Assembly: GCA_913062955.1 (NCBI GenBank)
Contig: CAJXZP010000008.1
Location: 1 to 64,000, forward strand
Source: an uncultured Flavobacteriales bacterium
GTDB taxonomy: Bacteria; Bacteroidota; Bacteroidia; Flavobacteriales_G; Salibacteraceae
Direction of reading: 5' to 3'
Length of the DNA: 64,000 nucleotides
The notes under the pieces were generated by a model, which was not told the origin of the DNA, made no database searches, and saw nothing but the letters and a program-made list of their open reading frames with translations. A program made the translations under genes and the position numbers. Positions within the stretch are counted from its first letter, which is position 1, and each line of letters begins with the position of its first letter. This document shows positions 14,199-24,183 of the stretch, in pieces.

Positions 14199-16196
14199 AT
14201 GTTTAAATTGAGACTACATCATATCACTATCGTTCTGGTAACGGTATTCATTTGTATTCTTTCATTTGCTGTTCAGGCAAGTGAACCGGCAGACCGTATT
14301 CCATTTCCTAAACAGAAAGAAACGGCAATGGATCGTCTAATTTGGTTACGTGAACAAATGGAAACGAGCCATATTGATTCCAACATCGCTGTAGAGCAGT
14401 ATTTCCAAGTAATAAAATTACGTGCGATTAAGGATGAAAACCCTGGATTACTGGCTAATGCGAGTTATAACTTAGGGATATTGTACTTCAATTCAGAGAA
14501 CTACATCAAAGCCATCCCTCCTCTACAAAGCGCTCTAGACAATGTACCCAACCTCCAATACTCGGATAGTTTATTACTTTACAATCATATTACCATTGCA
14601 TTTAAGGAGATTCGCGCATTTAATTCGGCCGTACAATATGTAAGTACGCTCGAATATTTAATGAACAAAAACCCTCAAGAATATGATCGAATTTCCAATA
14701 ACGTCATGTCATTGGATGGCTTATACTATAATTTAGGGATGTATTCTGATGCCATTAGAGTTTTTAGACAAAAAAAATCCAAGGGGATCAATATGGTTCG
14801 CTCTGACCCCTACAAATATGCCGTTGACGCCTTTGATTTGGGCCGATATTTTAGCGCAAACAAACAACCAGATAGTGCCTTACATTATTACAATATATCC
14901 CGAGGAATTGTAGAAAGTTCAAATTTCGAAAACGGAGAATATTTCCTCGGTTTAATCAAAGGGAATTCGGCTGAAACCTTAATCCAACAAAAAAAATATG
15001 AGCAAGCAATTCCCCTTTTAAAAGAAAACTATGTTACTAGTTTAAGAGAAAAGGATCTATCAAACTCGGCTAAGACATTGAATTTACTAGCCCATTGCGA
15101 ACAAAAAACGGGAGATATTGATAATGCCTTACGTCATTTACAAGCCGTTAAAAACCATACCAATAGGCTGAAAGATGGCGATATTATGTATACCAACACC
15201 CTGTATTTAAGTCAAACATTTGGAAAGTTACAACAATACGATTCGGCCTACTGGTATTCCAAAAGGTACATCCAACTCACCGACTCCATTCAGGCAACCC
15301 GAAACATTGAAAAATCGGCTCAGCTTTCTGTATCGGCTGAGCTTCAACATAAGGAGCAAATCATGCAAAAAGCCTTGGTCCAAATGCATAAGGAAAAACA
15401 AAGTTCTGACAAAAACAAACAGATTTTGAATTGGATCATTGCCGCAGCAGTATTATTGGCTATTTCCTTTGTCACCGTTTTAATTCTTCTCCGGAAACAA
15501 AGTGCTTCAAAAAACAGGCTAAAAAAGCTATTAGTTAGTCATGAGCAAAAAACATCTGAAGTTGAGAAATCACTCCATGAAAAGGAATACCTACTTAAAG
15601 AAATTCACCATCGTGTAAAAAATAATTTACAAATTGTTTCTGGAATTCTACAACTTCAAGCCCTACATAGCAAAAACAAGGAAATTAAGCATATTATGAA
15701 CGAAAGCCAGAATAGAATCCAATCTATGGCTCTTATTCATCAAATGTTGTATCAAAATGAAGATTTTAGAAACATTGCCTTTAAACAATATGTTCACAAA
15801 TTAAATCTTCAAATAATGAGTTCATTGATGGTTGATTCCAATAGAATCAAAATCAATATTATTGTAAAAGATGTATATTTAGATGTGGAAACTGCTATAC
15901 CTTTAGGCCTAATTGTAAATGAACTTTTAACAAATGCAGTAAAATATGCCTATCCTGAGGATAGCCAGGGTCAAATAGATGTCTGGCTGAAAAGTGATTC
16001 TGACAATAATTACGAATTAATTGTATCGGATGATGGTGTTGGTTTATCCGAAGGTTTTAATATTACAAGTACGAACACACTTGGGCTACAATTGGTGAAT
16101 ATGCTATCAAAACAGCTTAAAAGTGAACTTAAATACAGAAATAATTCAGGAGCGGAATTCTCCATAAAGTTTAAAATTAAAACGAATGAGTTATAA
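14199..16196 (+). CDS. TPR-containing membrane sensor histidine kinase (HisKA_2/HWE-like type)
   Basis: 665 aa; signal peptide, TPR-like helices, TM ILNWIIAAAVLLAISFVTVLILL, H-box KEIHHRVKNNLQIVSGILQLQ, N-box LIVNELLTNAVKYAYP, DDGVGL G-box. Confidence 0.92.
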   Translation: MFKLRLHHITIVLVTVFICILSFAVQASEPADRIPFPKQKETAMDRLIWLREQMETSHIDSNIAVEQYFQVIKLRAIKDENPGLLANASYNLGILYFNSENYIKAIPPLQSALDNVPNLQYSDSLLLYNHITIAFKEIRAFNSAVQYVSTLEYLMNKNPQEYDRISNNVMSLDGLYYNLGMYSDAIRVFRQKKSKGINMVRSDPYKYAVDAFDLGRYFSANKQPDSALHYYNISRGIVESSNFENGEYFLGLIKGNSAETLIQQKKYEQAIPLLKENYVTSLREKDLSNSAKTLNLLAHCEQKTGDIDNALRHLQAVKNHTNRLKDGDIMYTNTLYLSQTFGKLQQYDSAYWYSKRYIQLTDSIQATRNIEKSAQLSVSAELQHKEQIMQKALVQMHKEKQSSDKNKQILNWIIAAAVLLAISFVTVLILLRKQSASKNRLKKLLVSHEQKTSEVEKSLHEKEYLLKEIHHRVKNNLQIVSGILQLQALHSKNKEIKHIMNESQNRIQSMALIHQMLYQNEDFRNIAFKQYVHKLNLQIMSSLMVDSNRIKINIIVKDVYLDVETAIPLGLIVNELLTNAVKYAYPEDSQGQIDVWLKSDSDNNYELIVSDDGVGLSEGFNITSTNTLGLQLVNMLSKQLKSELKYRNNSGAEFSIKFKIKTNEL

Positions 16197-16965
16197 GGTC
16201 AAAATATATATTGTGGAGGATGAGTACATTACTCAGGCCGTTCTTAAAAACAATGTAGAAGAAATTGGATATACCGTGGTGGGTATGTCGGACACTGCAG
16301 AAAAAGCATGGGAAGATCTCCAAGGTATGGATGTTGATTTAGCCTTGCTAGACATAAATCTTGCAGGCGAAAAAGATGGCATTTGGTTAGCAAAAAAAAT
16401 ACGGGAGAACATCGGCATTCCTTTTATTTTTCTTACTGCCTATGGAGATAAATCGACTATAAATACGGCTGTTAAAACACAACCAAATGGATACCTTTTG
16501 AAACCATTTAATGAAGTAGATATTTATACGGCTATCGAGGTAGCCTTAAATAATTTCAATCAAACTCAAGCCAAACCAAAGCTACAAAGCAAAGAGTTAG
16601 ACGGTGGTACCAAACCACTTCCAACGAGCTCAACAGATGTCTCCGTTGGGAATGATCAAACCATTTATCTAAAAGTGGATAAAATTTTTTACAAGATTAA
16701 ACTATCCGAAATATTCTACGTAAAATCAGATAGTAATTACGTGGAGGTATTCCTGGAAAGTAAAAAACATTTGGTTCGAAGTACATTAAAGAATTTCTCG
16801 GAACTACTACCGGAACATATGTTTTTACAAGTACACCGTTCATATATTGTAAATGTAAAAAAAATTGAAAGCTTGGGTGATGGAGAAGTTCGATTAAATA
16901 GTGACAAAAGCGTACCTTTATCTGCTAACTATAAAGAGGACGTGATCCATAAAGTGGTGCATTAA
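16186..16965 (+). CDS. LytTR-family response regulator
   Basis: REC domain (VEDE, LALLDINL, FLTAY, LLKPF) + LytTR domain (IFYVKSDSNYVEVFLESKKHLVRSTLKNFSELLPEHMFLQVHRSYIVNVKKIES); overlaps the kinase ORF by 11 bp. Confidence 0.95.
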   Translation: MSYKVKIYIVEDEYITQAVLKNNVEEIGYTVVGMSDTAEKAWEDLQGMDVDLALLDINLAGEKDGIWLAKKIRENIGIPFIFLTAYGDKSTINTAVKTQPNGYLLKPFNEVDIYTAIEVALNNFNQTQAKPKLQSKELDGGTKPLPTSSTDVSVGNDQTIYLKVDKIFYKIKLSEIFYVKSDSNYVEVFLESKKHLVRSTLKNFSELLPEHMFLQVHRSYIVNVKKIESLGDGEVRLNSDKSVPLSANYKEDVIHKVVH

Positions 16966-16975
16966 AACAATAATC

Positions 16976-19045
16976 ATGCGGCGTATTCTATTGATATTTT
17001 GTGGTATTTTAAGTTTTGCAATTTCCTTGAATGCGCAAAATTCGGAGGTTTCCAAATACATCCAACAAATGTATATTATTTGGGACTCTACCTATATTAA
17101 CTATTCTGTATCTCATAATGCAGGTGATTCTATTGATGCCATCAATTTATTAAAAAAGACACCTATTCAAGTCCAAGATTCGCTCAGCATCCTTACCCCA
17201 GAACTACTAGAGCAACAAGTACTCTTGCAGGAGGCAAAAACTATTGACGGAGACATGGGTTTAAATATGCGAGCTGATTATGCTTACAACTTAGATCCAG
17301 GGATTGGATTTGAAGACAACTTATTCTACACTCAAAAATTTAGAGTCGGTCTTGAAATGAATTTGTTAAGTGGTGGTTTATTTGCCAATAATACGGCTTC
17401 GAGAATAAAATACAATGAACTAGAAATACGCAGGTTACAATCACCTGAACAGGCAAAAAAACAGGATCGGTATTTAAAATGGCATAATATCATTTACCAA
17501 TTTAACTTAAAAAAAATCGAAGTTTTAAGAGCAAGAGAAAGGCTTGCCCAACATAGGGTTCAAATGGCTACCCAGCTTAATTTCCTAAAACATGTAACTC
17601 AAAAGGATTTAATACATGCTATTTCTAGTCATGCAGAAATTCAAAGCATGTTAAACATATACGAAAGTTATAATTATCAACTTGCTTCGGAATTAAAAGT
17701 CAACAGCCAAGTAGCGACCCAATTCCCTCCCATTGACATTAACTATACCTATTCTTACAAATTATTAGGGACAGAAGAACCAGATTCCATTTCGTCTTTG
17801 ATGATTGAGAATATTGAATTGAGGGATAAAACCATTAACGAATTCAAATTAAAACCTTTTGTGGCTTATAATTTTTACGATTTGGTAAGTGATAATCCCT
17901 CGAATCGAAATTATTTTTCCGTTGGGTTGACGGTGGGAGCTCCATTAAATTTCAACTCAAAAAATAGAGCAAATTTACGAGAAGCAAGATCGCAATTAGC
18001 CCTGCTCCCCACCAGTAGTAGACCGGAAATCCAACAAGACATTTTAACCCAGTTTTACGAGTTTAGATACAAACTAAAACAATACTCTAACCTGCACTAC
18101 AAAAGACAAAGCTACACGGAGTTATTACGACAAGAACAGGTAAAGCATGATATTTCCCCCCTTACTTTTAATCCAATCAGAGCCTTAAAATTAATGGACA
18201 ATGTGATGCAGATTGACATTGAAATGATTGATACCAAACAACAGATGTATCTAAAAGCTCTGAACATTTACACCGACTTGCCATTTAGTAATGCCGAAAA
18301 ACTGATCCATCCGGTTAATATGAAAAGGCAAGACCGACACTCTGGACATTTTAACAGCATTTATGTGTGGAGTAATACCATATTGAAACACGAACCTGCA
18401 GTATTAGCACACTATATCAATTTAAATCCATTTCATAGAGCCACTATTAGTTACAATTCAAATCCCGATGCCCAAATCAGAACAAATAAGTTTATTCATC
18501 ACTTACATCTAGAAGGTATTGATATCGAATTAATGATTGGGAAAAATTCATTAATTGAAGGCGGATTTACCCAACACCTGCAAAAGTTGGATACCCAATT
18601 TGACCTATCCAAAATCACCTCCATTAGTTTGGATGTAGAACCACATACACGCAAAGATTGGCATGAAAACAAAGCAAGCTACATGAAAAAGTATCACGCT
18701 TTATTAGCTGAGGCTCGTGCGTACTGTAACAATAAAGGGCTTCAATTAAGCGTGAGTATCCCAACTCATTACCCCGAAGAAGATATTTTTAAAATTTACG
18801 AAACTGTTGACCGAGTATACTTTATGTGTTACGAAAATGTAAAAACAGAATTTATTATTCGCAAAACCAATAAATATCCCATCGAAAAAACGTATATCGC
18901 ATTACGCACCAATGACTTTAACAATAGATTAGAGATGGAGAATAAATTTAAAGAGCTAAACCTGTCAACAAAGGTGGCTGGCTATTTAGTACATGATCTA
19001 GGATCATTGCTGGAATTTGATCATAATTCTTTAAACAACCAATAA
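16976..19045 (+). CDS. TolC-family outer-membrane-factor-like protein fused to a C-terminal glycoside-hydrolase (GH18-like TIM-barrel) domain
   Basis: 689 aa, signal peptide; about 430 aa TolC-like repeats (FVAYNFYDLVSDNPSNRNYFSVGLTVGAPLNFNSKNRANLREARSQL), then ISLDVEPHTRKDWHENKASYMKKYHALLAEARAYCNNKGLQLSVSIPTHYPEEDIFKIYETVDRVYFMCYE resembling GH18-type strands. Confidence 0.7.
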   Translation: MRRILLIFCGILSFAISLNAQNSEVSKYIQQMYIIWDSTYINYSVSHNAGDSIDAINLLKKTPIQVQDSLSILTPELLEQQVLLQEAKTIDGDMGLNMRADYAYNLDPGIGFEDNLFYTQKFRVGLEMNLLSGGLFANNTASRIKYNELEIRRLQSPEQAKKQDRYLKWHNIIYQFNLKKIEVLRARERLAQHRVQMATQLNFLKHVTQKDLIHAISSHAEIQSMLNIYESYNYQLASELKVNSQVATQFPPIDINYTYSYKLLGTEEPDSISSLMIENIELRDKTINEFKLKPFVAYNFYDLVSDNPSNRNYFSVGLTVGAPLNFNSKNRANLREARSQLALLPTSSRPEIQQDILTQFYEFRYKLKQYSNLHYKRQSYTELLRQEQVKHDISPLTFNPIRALKLMDNVMQIDIEMIDTKQQMYLKALNIYTDLPFSNAEKLIHPVNMKRQDRHSGHFNSIYVWSNTILKHEPAVLAHYINLNPFHRATISYNSNPDAQIRTNKFIHHLHLEGIDIELMIGKNSLIEGGFTQHLQKLDTQFDLSKITSISLDVEPHTRKDWHENKASYMKKYHALLAEARAYCNNKGLQLSVSIPTHYPEEDIFKIYETVDRVYFMCYENVKTEFIIRKTNKYPIEKTYIALRTNDFNNRLEMENKFKELNLSTKVAGYLVHDLGSLLEFDHNSLNNQ

Positions 19046-19067: not shown

Positions 19068-20156
19068 GTGAAATCATTAAACTTTAATAGAAAAGCCTCC
19101 ATGTTGAGAAACATGGAAGAGGAAAAAGTATCGAGTAGAACCAAAAACTGGGACAAAATTGTCTATTATGTTGTTCTTGGTTTGATCAGTTTTTTCATTT
19201 TCCGCTATTTTATTAATCAAGTATTCTATGTGCATGCCCAAGGACAAATTCTCTTTAATAGCATTAAAATTCGAGTACCAGATGATATTACCATTCATTA
19301 CTTTAAAGTAAAGGAGGGTGATACAGTGTTATATGGAGATACTCTTTTTGCGTATACAGCCGCAAGAGACGAACAAAGCCGGGGAGCATTTGCTTTTCAA
19401 ATCAAGGATGACAATAACGACAACTCCACTTCGTGGCAACAACGAGAAGTATACCAACTAAATAAAAACATCGTGTTAAATCGCTTACGTATTGGCGAAA
19501 ACATTAATCTAATTGCTTGGTACCAGTCAGAAATTCAAAAACTTCGAAATCAAGTTATTCTTGAAATAAGTTCTAAAAACAAACTAGAATCATACGAAAG
19601 TCAACTTGAAAAACTCACCATTGAAAACAAAAAATACACGAGTGAGATTTATGTTTTTAGGAAGATGATTACTGAATTGGGAGGACAGTCAGAAGAATCC
19701 ATAGAAGACGATTTTGAACATGCACCCACTCCCTATTCTGGTGGTGGGGCTGGCTACATGTCCATGAAAAGACTGTATGTAAGTCCGATGAGCGGGGTAA
19801 TTACTCGAATCTATAAAAGGCCCAATGAAGTTTCTTTAAAATCGGAAGAGATCATGAATGTGCATCAACAAGAAAGCATTTATATCAAAGCTTTTTTCAA
19901 TCCGGAAGACCTTGAGGCTATTGAGGTAGGTAGCGAAGTCTCCCTTATTTTCCCGGATGGCACCACTAGTCACGGACTCATCAGGCGTACGTATACGGCC
20001 ACGTATAGGTTACCCACTGAATTTCAAAAAAAGTACGAGTCAACTACCCGATCCATCGCAGTTGATATTTACCCTTCGGATGATGAACAATTATCCGAAT
20101 GGAAGAAATTTTATAAAATTCCAGTTCAAATCCGAAAAAATCGTTTCCAATGGTAG
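19068..20156 (+). CDS. HlyD-family membrane fusion/adaptor protein
   Basis: Single N-terminal TM, lipoyl-like 'VKEGDTVLYGDTLFAY', coiled coil, 'LYVSPMSGVITRIYKRPNEVSLKSEEIMNVHQQESIYIKAFFNPEDLEAIEVGSEVSLIFPDG'. Confidence 0.85.
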   Translation: MKSLNFNRKASMLRNMEEEKVSSRTKNWDKIVYYVVLGLISFFIFRYFINQVFYVHAQGQILFNSIKIRVPDDITIHYFKVKEGDTVLYGDTLFAYTAARDEQSRGAFAFQIKDDNNDNSTSWQQREVYQLNKNIVLNRLRIGENINLIAWYQSEIQKLRNQVILEISSKNKLESYESQLEKLTIENKKYTSEIYVFRKMITELGGQSEESIEDDFEHAPTPYSGGGAGYMSMKRLYVSPMSGVITRIYKRPNEVSLKSEEIMNVHQQESIYIKAFFNPEDLEAIEVGSEVSLIFPDGTTSHGLIRRTYTATYRLPTEFQKKYESTTRSIAVDIYPSDDEQLSEWKKFYKIPVQIRKNRFQW

Positions 20157-21583
20157 AAGATTTTGAAAAAGGTCAAATTATTGTCGACAAGAATGTGGTA
20201 ACCTACCACGATTTGAAATACTTTATTGTAGAGTTAAATGACAAGTTTCGACCAGATAACCTAATCAAATATGACGTCCTATTAATTGATATTAAAGAAG
20301 ATGAACTGGTTACTTATGTCGTTAAACAGATAAGAACTCATATAAATCCGAGGATTTATATGATGCCCATATTTCTACTCTCTACCACAGATTTTCATGA
20401 AGTGGTTACCACCCATTTAACGGATGGTATTTTACCTTCCATTAACCATTTAGATTCTATTGAACCAAGAGCATTGGACATTAAGGCCAATATTGAACGA
20501 ATCAATCATCCTAAAGTATTAAGTTTTGAGTCCCAAATGATCAACAGAACTTTGAACTTAATGTATACCAGGAATAAAAAGGTCTTAAATCCTATACCCT
20601 ATTTCCATTCTGGAATTGGGTATTATTATCCCGAGCTATCCATCAATTTCGATCATAGGGATGAAAGTGGCGCATTAAAAATTTTGGAGATAGCCGAACA
20701 AGAAGGACTTTTTCAATCCGAGTTTCATGAACGTGTCTATTGCTGTAATAATTGCAATGGTAGTTACTTAAACTATCGGGAAGTTTGTCCAAAATGCAAT
20801 TCTTCAGATTCAATATCTCAAGATTTAGTTCACCATTTCCCCTGTGCCTATGTTGGGCCTATTGAAGATTTCAAAAACAATATTGATGACCAATTAGACT
20901 GTCCGAAGTGTAATAAAACGCTTCGCCATATTGGAGTAGATTATGACAAACCATCGGTATTGTATACTTGTAACAGTTGTCATCACCGCTTCCAAGACTA
21001 TTATACCAAAGCTAAATGTATCACTTGTGGTACCGAAAATGATGTAGAACATTTGGTTCCTTTTTCCATCAAGAAATACATTATGACCAAAAAAGGGGAA
21101 AATGTAGCGATTAATGGATATATCAATATCGAAAAACAATTAGAGTCATTGGAAGGTACGGTAACTATGGCCATTTTCAAAGTACTGTTGACTTACGAAA
21201 TTCAGCGACTACATACGCAAGGCTATCAATCCAATATTGGTTACATCCATGTACAACATGCCGCTGCTGTAGCCGGTGTTTTAGGGCTTGAAAAACAAAA
21301 AGCCTTAATGAATGACTTAGTTCAAATGCTGAAAAGTAATTTAAACCCTTCGGATTTTGTAAGTTTTTACAACTCATCAACAATCGTTTTTTCATTTGTA
21401 AATACCAAACACAAGGAAGCCAAAGAGGCCATCGAAGAAATGAAAGACCTATCAGAAAGGTTGTTACGTAAATCATTTGAAAAGGTTCATATTGAAGTCC
21501 GTACAGATGTTATCGCATTAAAACTAGGAGGTGAGGTAGAATCTGTAGTCAATTCTATGGTATTTCCGTTAACAAAAATGTAA
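20150..21583 (+). CDS. receiver-like + TackOD1-like zinc-ribbon + GGDEF-like (signature-less) cytosolic protein
   Basis: CCNNCNGSYLNYREVCPKCNS ... CPKCNKTLRHIGVDYDKPSVLYTCNSCHHRFQDYYTKAKCITCG (paired CxxC ribbons) followed by a nucleotidyl-cyclase-like C-domain 'NLNPSDFVSFYNSSTIVFSFVNT' in which the GGDEF position reads NSSTI. Confidence 0.6.
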   Translation: MVEDFEKGQIIVDKNVVTYHDLKYFIVELNDKFRPDNLIKYDVLLIDIKEDELVTYVVKQIRTHINPRIYMMPIFLLSTTDFHEVVTTHLTDGILPSINHLDSIEPRALDIKANIERINHPKVLSFESQMINRTLNLMYTRNKKVLNPIPYFHSGIGYYYPELSINFDHRDESGALKILEIAEQEGLFQSEFHERVYCCNNCNGSYLNYREVCPKCNSSDSISQDLVHHFPCAYVGPIEDFKNNIDDQLDCPKCNKTLRHIGVDYDKPSVLYTCNSCHHRFQDYYTKAKCITCGTENDVEHLVPFSIKKYIMTKKGENVAINGYINIEKQLESLEGTVTMAIFKVLLTYEIQRLHTQGYQSNIGYIHVQHAAAVAGVLGLEKQKALMNDLVQMLKSNLNPSDFVSFYNSSTIVFSFVNTKHKEAKEAIEEMKDLSERLLRKSFEKVHIEVRTDVIALKLGGEVESVVNSMVFPLTKM

Positions 21584-21589
21584 ATTCAA

Positions 21590-22909
21590 ATGGATGTTTT
21601 CGGAGCGGAAATACAAGAGTTTTTTCATTACCTAAGATCCGTAGGTTTTAGTAAATTACTTCGTGTTTTTTGGTTTTTCTTCTTTTTTGAGTTTTTTCGT
21701 TATGTTATTGTCGATTTAATTTCGCTCGTTTTCATTATGTGGGACCGAAAACGAAATAGAAACAACTACGAAGATGCCAAACGAAGAATGTGGCTAGAAC
21801 TCCCTTTGGTTTCTATTGTTGTTCCCGGTAAAAACGAAGGAAAACACATCTATAAATTAACCACTTCATTAAAAGAACAAACCTACAAAAACTTCGAGTT
21901 GATAATTGTAGATGATGGTTCAGATGATGATACCGAAATCATTTGTAAAAGCTTAAAAAAAAATGGGCTAATAGACTATTTCATACGAAACGAAGTTCGT
22001 GGAGGAAAGGCTTCAGGCGCCAACACGGCCCTTCGAATAGCCAGAGGAAAATACGTGGTCCACTTAGATGCTGATTGTTCCTATGACTTTGATGCCATTG
22101 AAAACATTATCATACCCTTTTATGAAAGCCCCGATGTAGGTGCCGTAGGAGGCAACGTAATGGTTCGGAATTATAAAGAATCCCTAGCCACCACCCTACA
22201 ATCATTTGAATATACAGATGCCATAAGCATTGGCAGAATGGTAGCTAGCTACTTGGGGATTTACCGTGTGGTTTCGGGTGCTTTTGGTGCCTTTAGAATG
22301 GATATATTACAACGGGTTCAGGGCTGGGATATAGGCCCCGGGTTAGATGGTGACATTACTGTCAAATTTAGAAAACTCGGTTACAAAATAAAGTTTGAAG
22401 ACCGAGCTGTTTGTCAAACCAATGTTCCCAATAGTTTTAGAAAATTAACCAAGCAACGTTTGCGCTGGGATAAATCTCTGATCCGATTTAGACTTAGAAA
22501 ACACTCCGATGTATTTTTCCCTTCTCAAAATTTTAGCTTAACAAATTTCATTTCCTTTATAGAAAACATCACCTACACACTTGTACTGAATATAAAATGG
22601 TACATCTATGCGAGTGATATGATCTATAATTTTGCTTCCGTACTCCCGTTTATTATTGTCATGAACTTTTTTCTTTACACCACCACAAATATGTTTAAGC
22701 TTTTGGTTTTCAATATATTTAGAGAACGGAAAAACACCCCCTTTTCCTACTTCGTTTTGTATGTGCCATTGATGGTTTTCTACCATGGATACTACCTACG
22801 TATCGTAAGAACGATTGCTTATATCAAAGAATTCTTCTTTAAACAATCGTATAAAGACCCATGGAACCCTGAGAAAACTTCCATAAAAGCACTGGAAATT
22901 GGAATTTAA
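21590..22909 (+). CDS. family 2 processive glycosyltransferase (PgaC/BcsA-like)
   Basis: VSIVVPGKNEG, IIVDDGSDDDT, HLDADCS, GLDGDIT, KQRLRWDKS (Q-x-x-R-W) plus flanking TM segments. Confidence 0.9.
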   Translation: MDVFGAEIQEFFHYLRSVGFSKLLRVFWFFFFFEFFRYVIVDLISLVFIMWDRKRNRNNYEDAKRRMWLELPLVSIVVPGKNEGKHIYKLTTSLKEQTYKNFELIIVDDGSDDDTEIICKSLKKNGLIDYFIRNEVRGGKASGANTALRIARGKYVVHLDADCSYDFDAIENIIIPFYESPDVGAVGGNVMVRNYKESLATTLQSFEYTDAISIGRMVASYLGIYRVVSGAFGAFRMDILQRVQGWDIGPGLDGDITVKFRKLGYKIKFEDRAVCQTNVPNSFRKLTKQRLRWDKSLIRFRLRKHSDVFFPSQNFSLTNFISFIENITYTLVLNIKWYIYASDMIYNFASVLPFIIVMNFFLYTTTNMFKLLVFNIFRERKNTPFSYFVLYVPLMVFYHGYYLRIVRTIAYIKEFFFKQSYKDPWNPEKTSIKALEIGI

Positions 22910-24183
22910 CGTTTCACTGCCAAAGACTGTACGGACACAATTTCGCCTCCATCATATAGTTTCAAATAATAAACTCCAATGGGTAAATCTGAAGTAGAAA
23001 TCAACACTACTTTTTGAGAATGACCAACCACTTTGGTTCTCATTAAATGCCCCGTAGTATTGTACAGATACACGACCCTATTTGATGGGGTATTCAAACC
23101 TGTTATTTCCACATTTACATAGGAAGATGATGGATTTGGATACACCGATAAATGCGCATTACTTACAAAATCAGAAACTCCTAAGGTAATGGATACCGTA
23201 TCCAAATAAGTATCCAGCCTACCACATTTAGAGGCCTGTAGTGTTACATAATACTCTCCTGGTGTACCATATATATGTTGTGGACTCTCTATTAAGCTAG
23301 AATCACCATCTCCAAAAAACCATACATAATCATCTGCTTGTGTCGAGTTGTTGGTAAAATCAAACGTACTCTGATTTTGGTTAAAAGAGAAATTCGCAAT
23401 GGGATCATATTCCCCAATATTCCATTGCAACATATTGTCAAACACCACTGATTTTGCTGCCATTCTAATGGTGGAGGCCTCCGAAGCAGTCAAACCGCCA
23501 TCAAATGTAATCAGGGTAGGATCTTTTCTAAATATGGTGACATAAAAAGCACAGGCAGCCGCGTAAGATCCAGCGAGAGAAGGATGTGATTCATCAGGTG
23601 AATACAGTTCTATCAACGGATAATTATTTCGAATATCACGCCAGACCGCCCCTACCGGAGAGACCAAAGCATCATTATCTTCCGCCATTTCCTGATAGCG
23701 TTCGTTCAATAAACTATCCATACCCTCATAGGTACACACCGGTGGCCAAAAAGCACAATTAGATGCATCCCCATTTTTCCGTCCCCAGGTCATAAAAAAA
23801 ATGGGCATCGAACAATCGGATCCCGATCGAATAGAATCACATAATGTTTTAGCATACGGATAAACATCCGATTGCACTTGGCCAATTGGCCAAGATGGTT
23901 CTTGACTTTGGGCTTGCAACACCACAAAATCCCAATCTTGGGCTGCAATTTTTGTGAGCGTTTGATTATTGGTCACATGATTTAAAAATCGCGTCCCACC
24001 CGGAGTTGATTGATCCGTAACCATGCTATCCCCTGCGGTTAATGCCATGTCTTTCAGCAATTCAGGCAAATCATTATAGTAGGTATAACTATTCCCAATA
24101 AACAACACCTTCTTTTCTTGACCATGGCCCATAATGGCGACAACACTTAATCCTAGTAGGATTCCAACAATCTTCTTTCTCAT
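22906..24183 (-). CDS. SGNH/GDSL-like hydrolase with PKD domain and T9SS type A sorting domain
   Basis: VLFIGNSYTYYNDLPELLKDMA, DFVVLQAQSQEP, DESHPSLAGSYAAACAFY; PKD 'YVWFFGDGDSSLIESPQHIYGTPGEYYVTLQA'; CTD 'LSVYPNPSSSYVNVEI...LPIGVYYLKLYDGG'. Confidence 0.88.
   Translation of the reverse strand: MRKKIVGILLGLSVVAIMGHGQEKKVLFIGNSYTYYNDLPELLKDMALTAGDSMVTDQSTPGGTRFLNHVTNNQTLTKIAAQDWDFVVLQAQSQEPSWPIGQVQSDVYPYAKTLCDSIRSGSDCSMPIFFMTWGRKNGDASNCAFWPPVCTYEGMDSLLNERYQEMAEDNDALVSPVGAVWRDIRNNYPLIELYSPDESHPSLAGSYAAACAFYVTIFRKDPTLITFDGGLTASEASTIRMAAKSVVFDNMLQWNIGEYDPIANFSFNQNQSTFDFTNNSTQADDYVWFFGDGDSSLIESPQHIYGTPGEYYVTLQASKCGRLDTYLDTVSITLGVSDFVSNAHLSVYPNPSSSYVNVEITGLNTPSNRVVYLYNTTGHLMRTKVVGHSQKVVLISTSDLPIGVYYLKLYDGGEIVSVQSLAVKR

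Follow-up and report, generated by a model that had tools for sequence, protein, structure and literature searches.

In the window, by which we mean the whole 64,000-nucleotide stretch of DNA that was analyzed, a single uninterrupted open reading frame (16976..19045, + strand) encodes a 689-aa protein in which a TolC-type channel and a C-terminal (β/α)8 barrel are fused. On balance, and with only a modest preference, we propose that this protein is part of a tripartite GT2-HlyD-TolC exporter of the synthase-dependent type for an exopolysaccharide, the channel of which would carry a periplasmic glycosidase cutting the operon's own N-acetylhexosamine polymer. The fold, the conservation of the catalytic residues, the fusion, and the operon are what the computation covers.

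The channel part spans residues 1-435 (16976..18280, +) and begins with a signal-peptide-like stretch, MRRILLIFCGILSFAISLNA, with the signal peptide covering residues 1-~20. In the full-length AF2 model (70 sequences aligned, pLDDT 87.8), the protein up to residue 434 folds as two helix-strand-strand-helix repeats in the order seen in TolC, with strands 96-104/118-128 and 291-303/310-321 and long helices 135-203, 209-240, 349-393, and 400-434, and the barrel follows. Foldseek matched the N-terminal part of this model to Escherichia coli TolC at E=1.4e-12. The Pfam OEP match is weak on the window protein itself (E=0.1, 12.8 bits versus a curated cut-off of 22) and exceeds the cut-off in several relatives, for example with 30.6 bits. 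An earlier note had read a TolC-type sequence followed by a C-terminal domain in one frame; this held, and all three motifs that it quoted are present, ISLDVEPH at residues 550-557, LQLSVSIPT at 589-597, and DRVYFMCYE at 612-620. Its domain boundary needed a slight correction, since the barrel starts at ~459 after a low-confidence linker at ~435-458, entered in our feature list as residues ~436-458 (18281..18349, +) on the basis of a pLDDT dip. Some channel homologs of ~880 aa (L004, L005, L041, and L082) have an extra N-terminal region, which gave a YCF48/BNR match where scanned (L041 and L082). We do not claim a SPOR domain in the N-terminal extensions of some channel homologs because the matches are only marginal (E=0.003-0.03).

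The fusion is not due to chance or to an assembly artifact, since a search of the contig collection found relatives of the barrel domain in 128 stretches and the fused frame is intact in nearly all loci. Eighty loci were kept, nearly all labeled Bacteroidota, and the intact fusion occurs in >80 Bacteroidota genomes. Among 100 relatives other than the window genome, 11 carry it, as do about 9 of 398 genomes in a sample spanning the phylum.

The barrel occupies residues 459-689 (18350..19042, +). AF2 (79 sequences) modeled the C-terminal 250 residues with a mean pLDDT of 92.4 as eight strands alternating with helices, so the (β/α)8 barrel that the earlier note had suspected at ~455-689 is predicted to be complete; a structure other than a TIM barrel, which the note had named as one refuting case, was therefore not obtained. 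Its Foldseek neighbors are GH18 chitinases, GH84 enzymes, and other TIM barrels, but GH18 structures reach TM-scores of only 0.50-0.57, much the same as unrelated TIM barrels (~0.5-0.6), so that structure matching alone leaves the kinship to GH18 unproven. Profile evidence goes further: hhalign aligned the barrel profile with 21 Bacteroidota GH18 sequences at E=5e-5, and a fungal GH18 chitinase aligned in the same register, albeit with weak statistics (E=0.095-0.24, HMM alignment). PF00704 was matched by 9 of the 79 relatives at E<=1, the best at E=6.9e-8, and by the relative L066 at E=2e-5 (24.9 bits versus a cut-off of 29.6). The Pfam scan gave no PF00704 match in the window protein itself, its C-terminal domain alone found no meaningful match in Pfam or NCBIfam, and a phmmer search of the PDB with the single barrel domain returned chance matches only. 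Taken together, we consider the barrel likely to be a remote relative of GH18.

In the hhalign and fungal chitinase alignments, both of which were inspected, E555 of the LDVEP sequence falls on the GH18 catalytic glutamate, as the earlier note had proposed, and MxYE falls on the GH18 motif MxYD. The GH18 signature DxxDxDxE is incomplete in the barrel (consensus G-I-H-L-D-V-E-P-H), and because its first two aspartates are replaced we call the domain GH18-like rather than filing it in GH18; the MxYD counterpart is present as MxY, with the aspartate mostly replaced by glutamate. The putative catalytic DxE, D553-V-E555-P556, lies at the end of strand β4 (18632..18643, +), and M617-C-Y619-E620, with the putative substrate-positioning tyrosine, at the end of strand β6 (18824..18835, +). 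Across 100 aligned homologs, D553, E555, M617, Y619, F648, and D674 are invariant, as is expected of a working active site, although the activity and the substrate remain inferred. P556 is kept in 98/100 and E620 in 94/100 homologs, and Y463, W465, N524, and H673 are conserved in >=98%. The pair H673-D674 at strand β8 (18992..18997, +; 98/100 and 100/100) is a further active-site candidate. DxE and MxY are also kept in a distant family, f68. In distant members, E620 is variable, as are parts of the GH18 motif.

A PgaB-type (GHL13) barrel was considered and rejected, as E. coli PgaB scored negatively against the barrel profile; GHL13 gave only two matches, both below cut-off, in 199 Bacteroidota genomes and was not found in the window's own genome. 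The LD[VI]EP motif and its surroundings are shared with PDB entry 10yv from Cellulomonas fimi (E=0.0032), which carries the depositor label "Putative GH97." The HLD[VI]EP signature of the barrel also occurs in stand-alone proteins that match nothing in Pfam (L104:1435-3378, L105:787-2244, and L106:682-2580). These proteins and 10yv, which share the motif with the window barrel but are not fused to a channel, may possibly represent a wider, unnamed glycosidase family.

The fusion gene lies in a tight co-directional run whose genes are separated, or overlap, by <=22 bp. Upstream are a TPR-HisKA_2 histidine kinase (14199..16196, +; Pfam), a probable regulator of the operon in this genus since it is also adjacent in the congener L003, and a LytTR response regulator (16186..16965, +), 10 bp from the fusion gene and adjacent in two congeners too. 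Downstream are a 362-aa HlyD-type periplasmic adaptor (19068..20156, +; HlyD_3, E=4e-5, above cut-off) with one N-terminal transmembrane helix (hydrophobic segment at residues 31-49), a TackOD1 regulator (20150..21583, +), and a processive GT2 polysaccharide synthase (21590..22909, +; PF00535, E=7e-29). The HlyD gene adjoins the fusion gene in nearly all of the complete loci of relatives, and the order fusion, HlyD, TackOD1, GT2 is constant across Bacteroidota in essentially every complete locus. This phylum thus has a conserved GT2-HlyD-TolC operon that so far lacks a name. One partner HlyD (L112:5296-6834, -) has a C-terminal SPOR domain (E=7.6e-10); SPOR domains bind peptidoglycan in other proteins.

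The GT2 protein is PgaC-like, with a DxD motif, QRLRW, and hydrophobic segments. Its best NCBIfam model is PgaC_IcaA, with 170.7 bits, which is below the cut-off of that model, versus only 34.2 bits for a CelA-like model; PgaC_IcaA as the best named family is in line with a GlcNAc-type polymer. Both DxD and QxxRW are present in 82/82 of the GT2 proteins. Of the domains that mark c-di-GMP control in synthase-dependent exopolysaccharide systems (PilZ, GGDEF, or similar), PilZ was not matched among the scanned operon proteins, and the only GGDEF-like region is that of the TackOD1 protein described below. We found no deacetylase or other sugar-modifying gene in the window operon, and the polymer is therefore unidentified.

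The TackOD1 protein combines a receiver-like N-terminus, a TackOD1 zinc ribbon (PF18551, E=4e-48), and a GGDEF-like C-terminus (E=0.0055). We reject a diguanylate cyclase function because the GGDEF motif was found in none of 90 homologs, most of which have five CxxC motifs each. TackOD1, a zinc-ribbon output domain whose function is unknown, was described from archaea (PMC5847659) and is known mainly from there; here it recurs as a fixed part of a polysaccharide operon in bacteria. The receiver-like domain preceding TackOD1 is intact in the f68 family. In this family (L107, L108, L109, L111, L112, L172, L175, and L176), a separate protein of 106-119 aa that resembles the N-terminal domain of the window TackOD1 protein is encoded between HlyD and the TackOD1 protein, which, where read, has its own receiver domain.

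Enzymatic activity, substrate, stoichiometry, and export function are inferences, for which there are no biochemical data. Our working hypothesis is that the GT2 synthase polymerizes an N-acetylhexosamine-containing chain and extrudes it through the inner membrane, and that the HlyD adaptor would bridge to a TolC-like trimer. Since a TolC protomer has four strands and its C-terminus returns to the periplasm, we infer that the GH18-like barrel is periplasmic on each channel subunit, which would give about three hydrolase domains per channel. There, the barrel may cleave the nascent or leaked polymer of its own operon, in order to trim chains, to release stalled ones, or to clear polymer that has leaked into the periplasm. 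In GH18 catalysis, the glutamate of DxDxE is the acid, the aspartate two residues before assists the acetamido group, and the β6 tyrosine positions it; an N-acetyl group is required at subsite -1 (PMC9323625). From residue conservation, we infer an acetamido-assisted mechanism in which E555 would be the acid/base, D553 the helper, and Y619 the residue positioning the N-acetyl group. That the polymer contains N-acetylhexosamine is itself inferred, because the N-acetyl requirement of GH18-type catalysis fits a PgaC-like synthase. One objection is that the C-terminus of TolC sits outside the tunnel, and it is thus possible that the barrel never touches a chain enclosed in a closed conduit.

Sister operons without the barrel, which were found by searching with TackOD1 rather than with the barrel, bear on its role. 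The channels of G232, G169, and G288 stop where the linker would start, and that of G157 retains the last barrel strands (E=2e-6) and, faintly, the first ones but lacks strands 4-6, which bear DxE and MxY. Only G157 is called a remnant, because the ~120-aa, unrelated-looking C-terminal extension of copy 2 in G300 has no significant match to the barrel profile. In a GT2 tree rooted on E. coli PgaC, the proteins of the barrel-less operons group as a single clade (support, 0.989) inside the barrel-bearing ones, which leads us to suggest, tentatively, that the barrel was lost once; the tree has one weak internal node (0.399) and a long root branch. A UDP-sugar dehydrogenase is encoded within four of five verified barrel-less operons versus none of 82 barrel-bearing ones; L170, the clade's sixth member, has no dehydrogenase, but its channel gene falls outside the contig. 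In L160, L161, L163, and L174, which are barrel-less, the enzyme is of the UDP-glucose/GDP-mannose type and lies between HlyD and TackOD1. The dehydrogenase may hint at a uronic acid polymer, and since the sister clade lost the barrel and mostly gained the dehydrogenase, the barrel may track polymer chemistry rather than channel assembly. This correlation is suggestive only, because it rests on one clade and few genomes, and because the barrel itself was the query with which the barrel-bearing set was assembled.

Among the alternatives, one of the two better placed, although unlikely, is that the barrel cleaves peptidoglycan as a glycosidase and so makes room in the wall for the TolC/HlyD channel to assemble, like the dedicated wall hydrolases of other envelope-spanning machines. 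In its favor, peptidoglycan contains GlcNAc, Foldseek lists the spore-cortex enzyme SleL at rank 25 among the neighbors of the barrel, and SPOR was found in one partner HlyD (E=7.6e-10) and, marginally, at channel N-termini (E=0.003-0.03). However, this explanation is weakened by the sister operons, which retain a channel, an adaptor, and a synthase and cross the same wall, yet have lost the barrel or its catalytic strands. To our knowledge, no other TolC system needs a wall-hydrolase domain. An equally improbable alternative is a noncatalytic barrel, which would merely bind carbohydrate and in this way guide the polymer or hold it in place at the channel. Lectins are common among GH18-like proteins, and the variation of E620 and of parts of the GH18 motif in distant members would suit such a role. 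Against it, D553, E555, and Y619, on which catalysis would depend, do not vary among 100 diverse sequences; in GH18 lectins, by contrast, the catalytic glutamate is typically missing.

Two further explanations are, in our opinion, very unlikely. In the first, the channel would serve ordinary efflux or type I secretion, the barrel would be an unrelated accessory, and the neighboring GT2 would act on something else. OMF and HlyD proteins do usually partner ABC, RND, or MFS pumps, but no gene for any of these was found among the window genes adjoining the operon, which makes ordinary efflux unlikely; furthermore, GT2 and TackOD1 genes adjoin the OMF/HlyD pair in nearly all complete loci, and the processive QxxRW motif is kept in all 82 GT2 proteins. 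The earlier note had named as its other refuting case that the fusion is a commonly annotated TolC subfamily with an efflux function; this did not refute it, as no NCBIfam model matches the channel-barrel fusion and its partners are HlyD, TackOD1, and GT2. The second is that the barrel remodels the polymer by transglycosylation or chain-length control, transglycosylation being possible for GH18 enzymes (PMC9323625), or that its substrate is a polymer from another source in the cell. Because the barrel is physically part of the channel protein and its gene is strictly linked to that of a single synthase, we argue instead that the product of the cognate synthase is the substrate.

The exporter that we favor resembles several known systems. 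For the cyanobacterial XcsAB-TolC cellulose system, tripartite secretion was proposed (Maeda et al. 2018, reviewed in PMC12430437), and it likewise comprises a processive synthase, an HlyD-like adaptor, and a TolC-like channel, with an endoglucanase gene, XcsC, in the set. It differs in that the hydrolase is a separate, unfused cellulase gene, the TolC gene is unlinked, and the synthase is of the BcsA type with PilZ, whereas the window GT2 is PgaC-like with no PilZ match; the phylum is another, and probably the polymer too. In Zymomonas, BcsZC fuses the cellulase BcsZ to BcsC, the pore of the cellulose system (PMC7112194), and thus also joins a periplasmic hydrolase to an outer membrane exopolysaccharide pore, but the window protein has a GH18-like barrel placed C-terminal to a TolC-fold channel used with HlyD. 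The PgaABCD system for PNAG in E. coli shares a PgaC-like GT2 and a periplasmic hydrolase domain (PgaB) serving an outer membrane exporter; however, PgaB is a lipoprotein of its own that includes a deacetylase, its GHL13 barrel has no profile similarity to that of the window, and the system has neither HlyD nor TolC. As for GH18 glycosidases, the (β/α)8 barrel, D-x-E at β4, and M-x-Y at β6 are common to both, and the window barrel is distinct in being compact (~230 aa), in the replacement of the first two aspartates, and in its fusion to a channel.

The claim that the hydrolase is fused directly to the export channel is thus supported, with its enzymatic activity and substrate inferred, and the claim that this architecture was unrecognized held in part: the idea of such a fusion is known from BcsZC, but we did not find these parts described. 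The open-license literature that we searched contains no TolC-GH18-like fusion, an absence that is no proof. Hydrolase-exporter fusions are therefore already known in general, and the pairing of TolC with a GH18-like domain, the activity of which is inferred, appears to be new. We regard as an open bet a bolder reading, namely, an undescribed class of exopolysaccharide machine in Bacteroidota whose channel is itself an enzyme, under the control of TackOD1, with three GH18-like hydrolase domains in a TolC-type trimer that would process the polymer of the partner GT2, and in which polymer-switching lineages lost the enzyme.

The role of the hydrolases or lyases of exporters (PgaB, PelA, BcsZ, and AlgL) is disputed between trimming, clearance of stalled chains, and help in export. 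Enzyme and channel in one polypeptide imply a fixed stoichiometry, and this design, together with the existence of relatives with and without the catalytic strands, makes the role of the hydrolase testable by point mutants. The operon also lends support, through gene linkage, to the tripartite synthase model, which until now had been proposed only for cyanobacteria, and it suggests a possible role for the uncharacterized TackOD1 domain.

Other genes were observed around these operons. In f68 genomes (L160, L161, L174, and L170; L107, L108, and L111), the operon contains or is directly followed by a gene for a lipoprotein-like protein of ~400-655 aa, the copy in L111 having no Pfam match. In the window, the convergent gene at 22906-24183 (-) may encode a secreted esterase-like protein; its product has a weak DUF4886 match, a PKD domain, and a sorting domain for type IX secretion.
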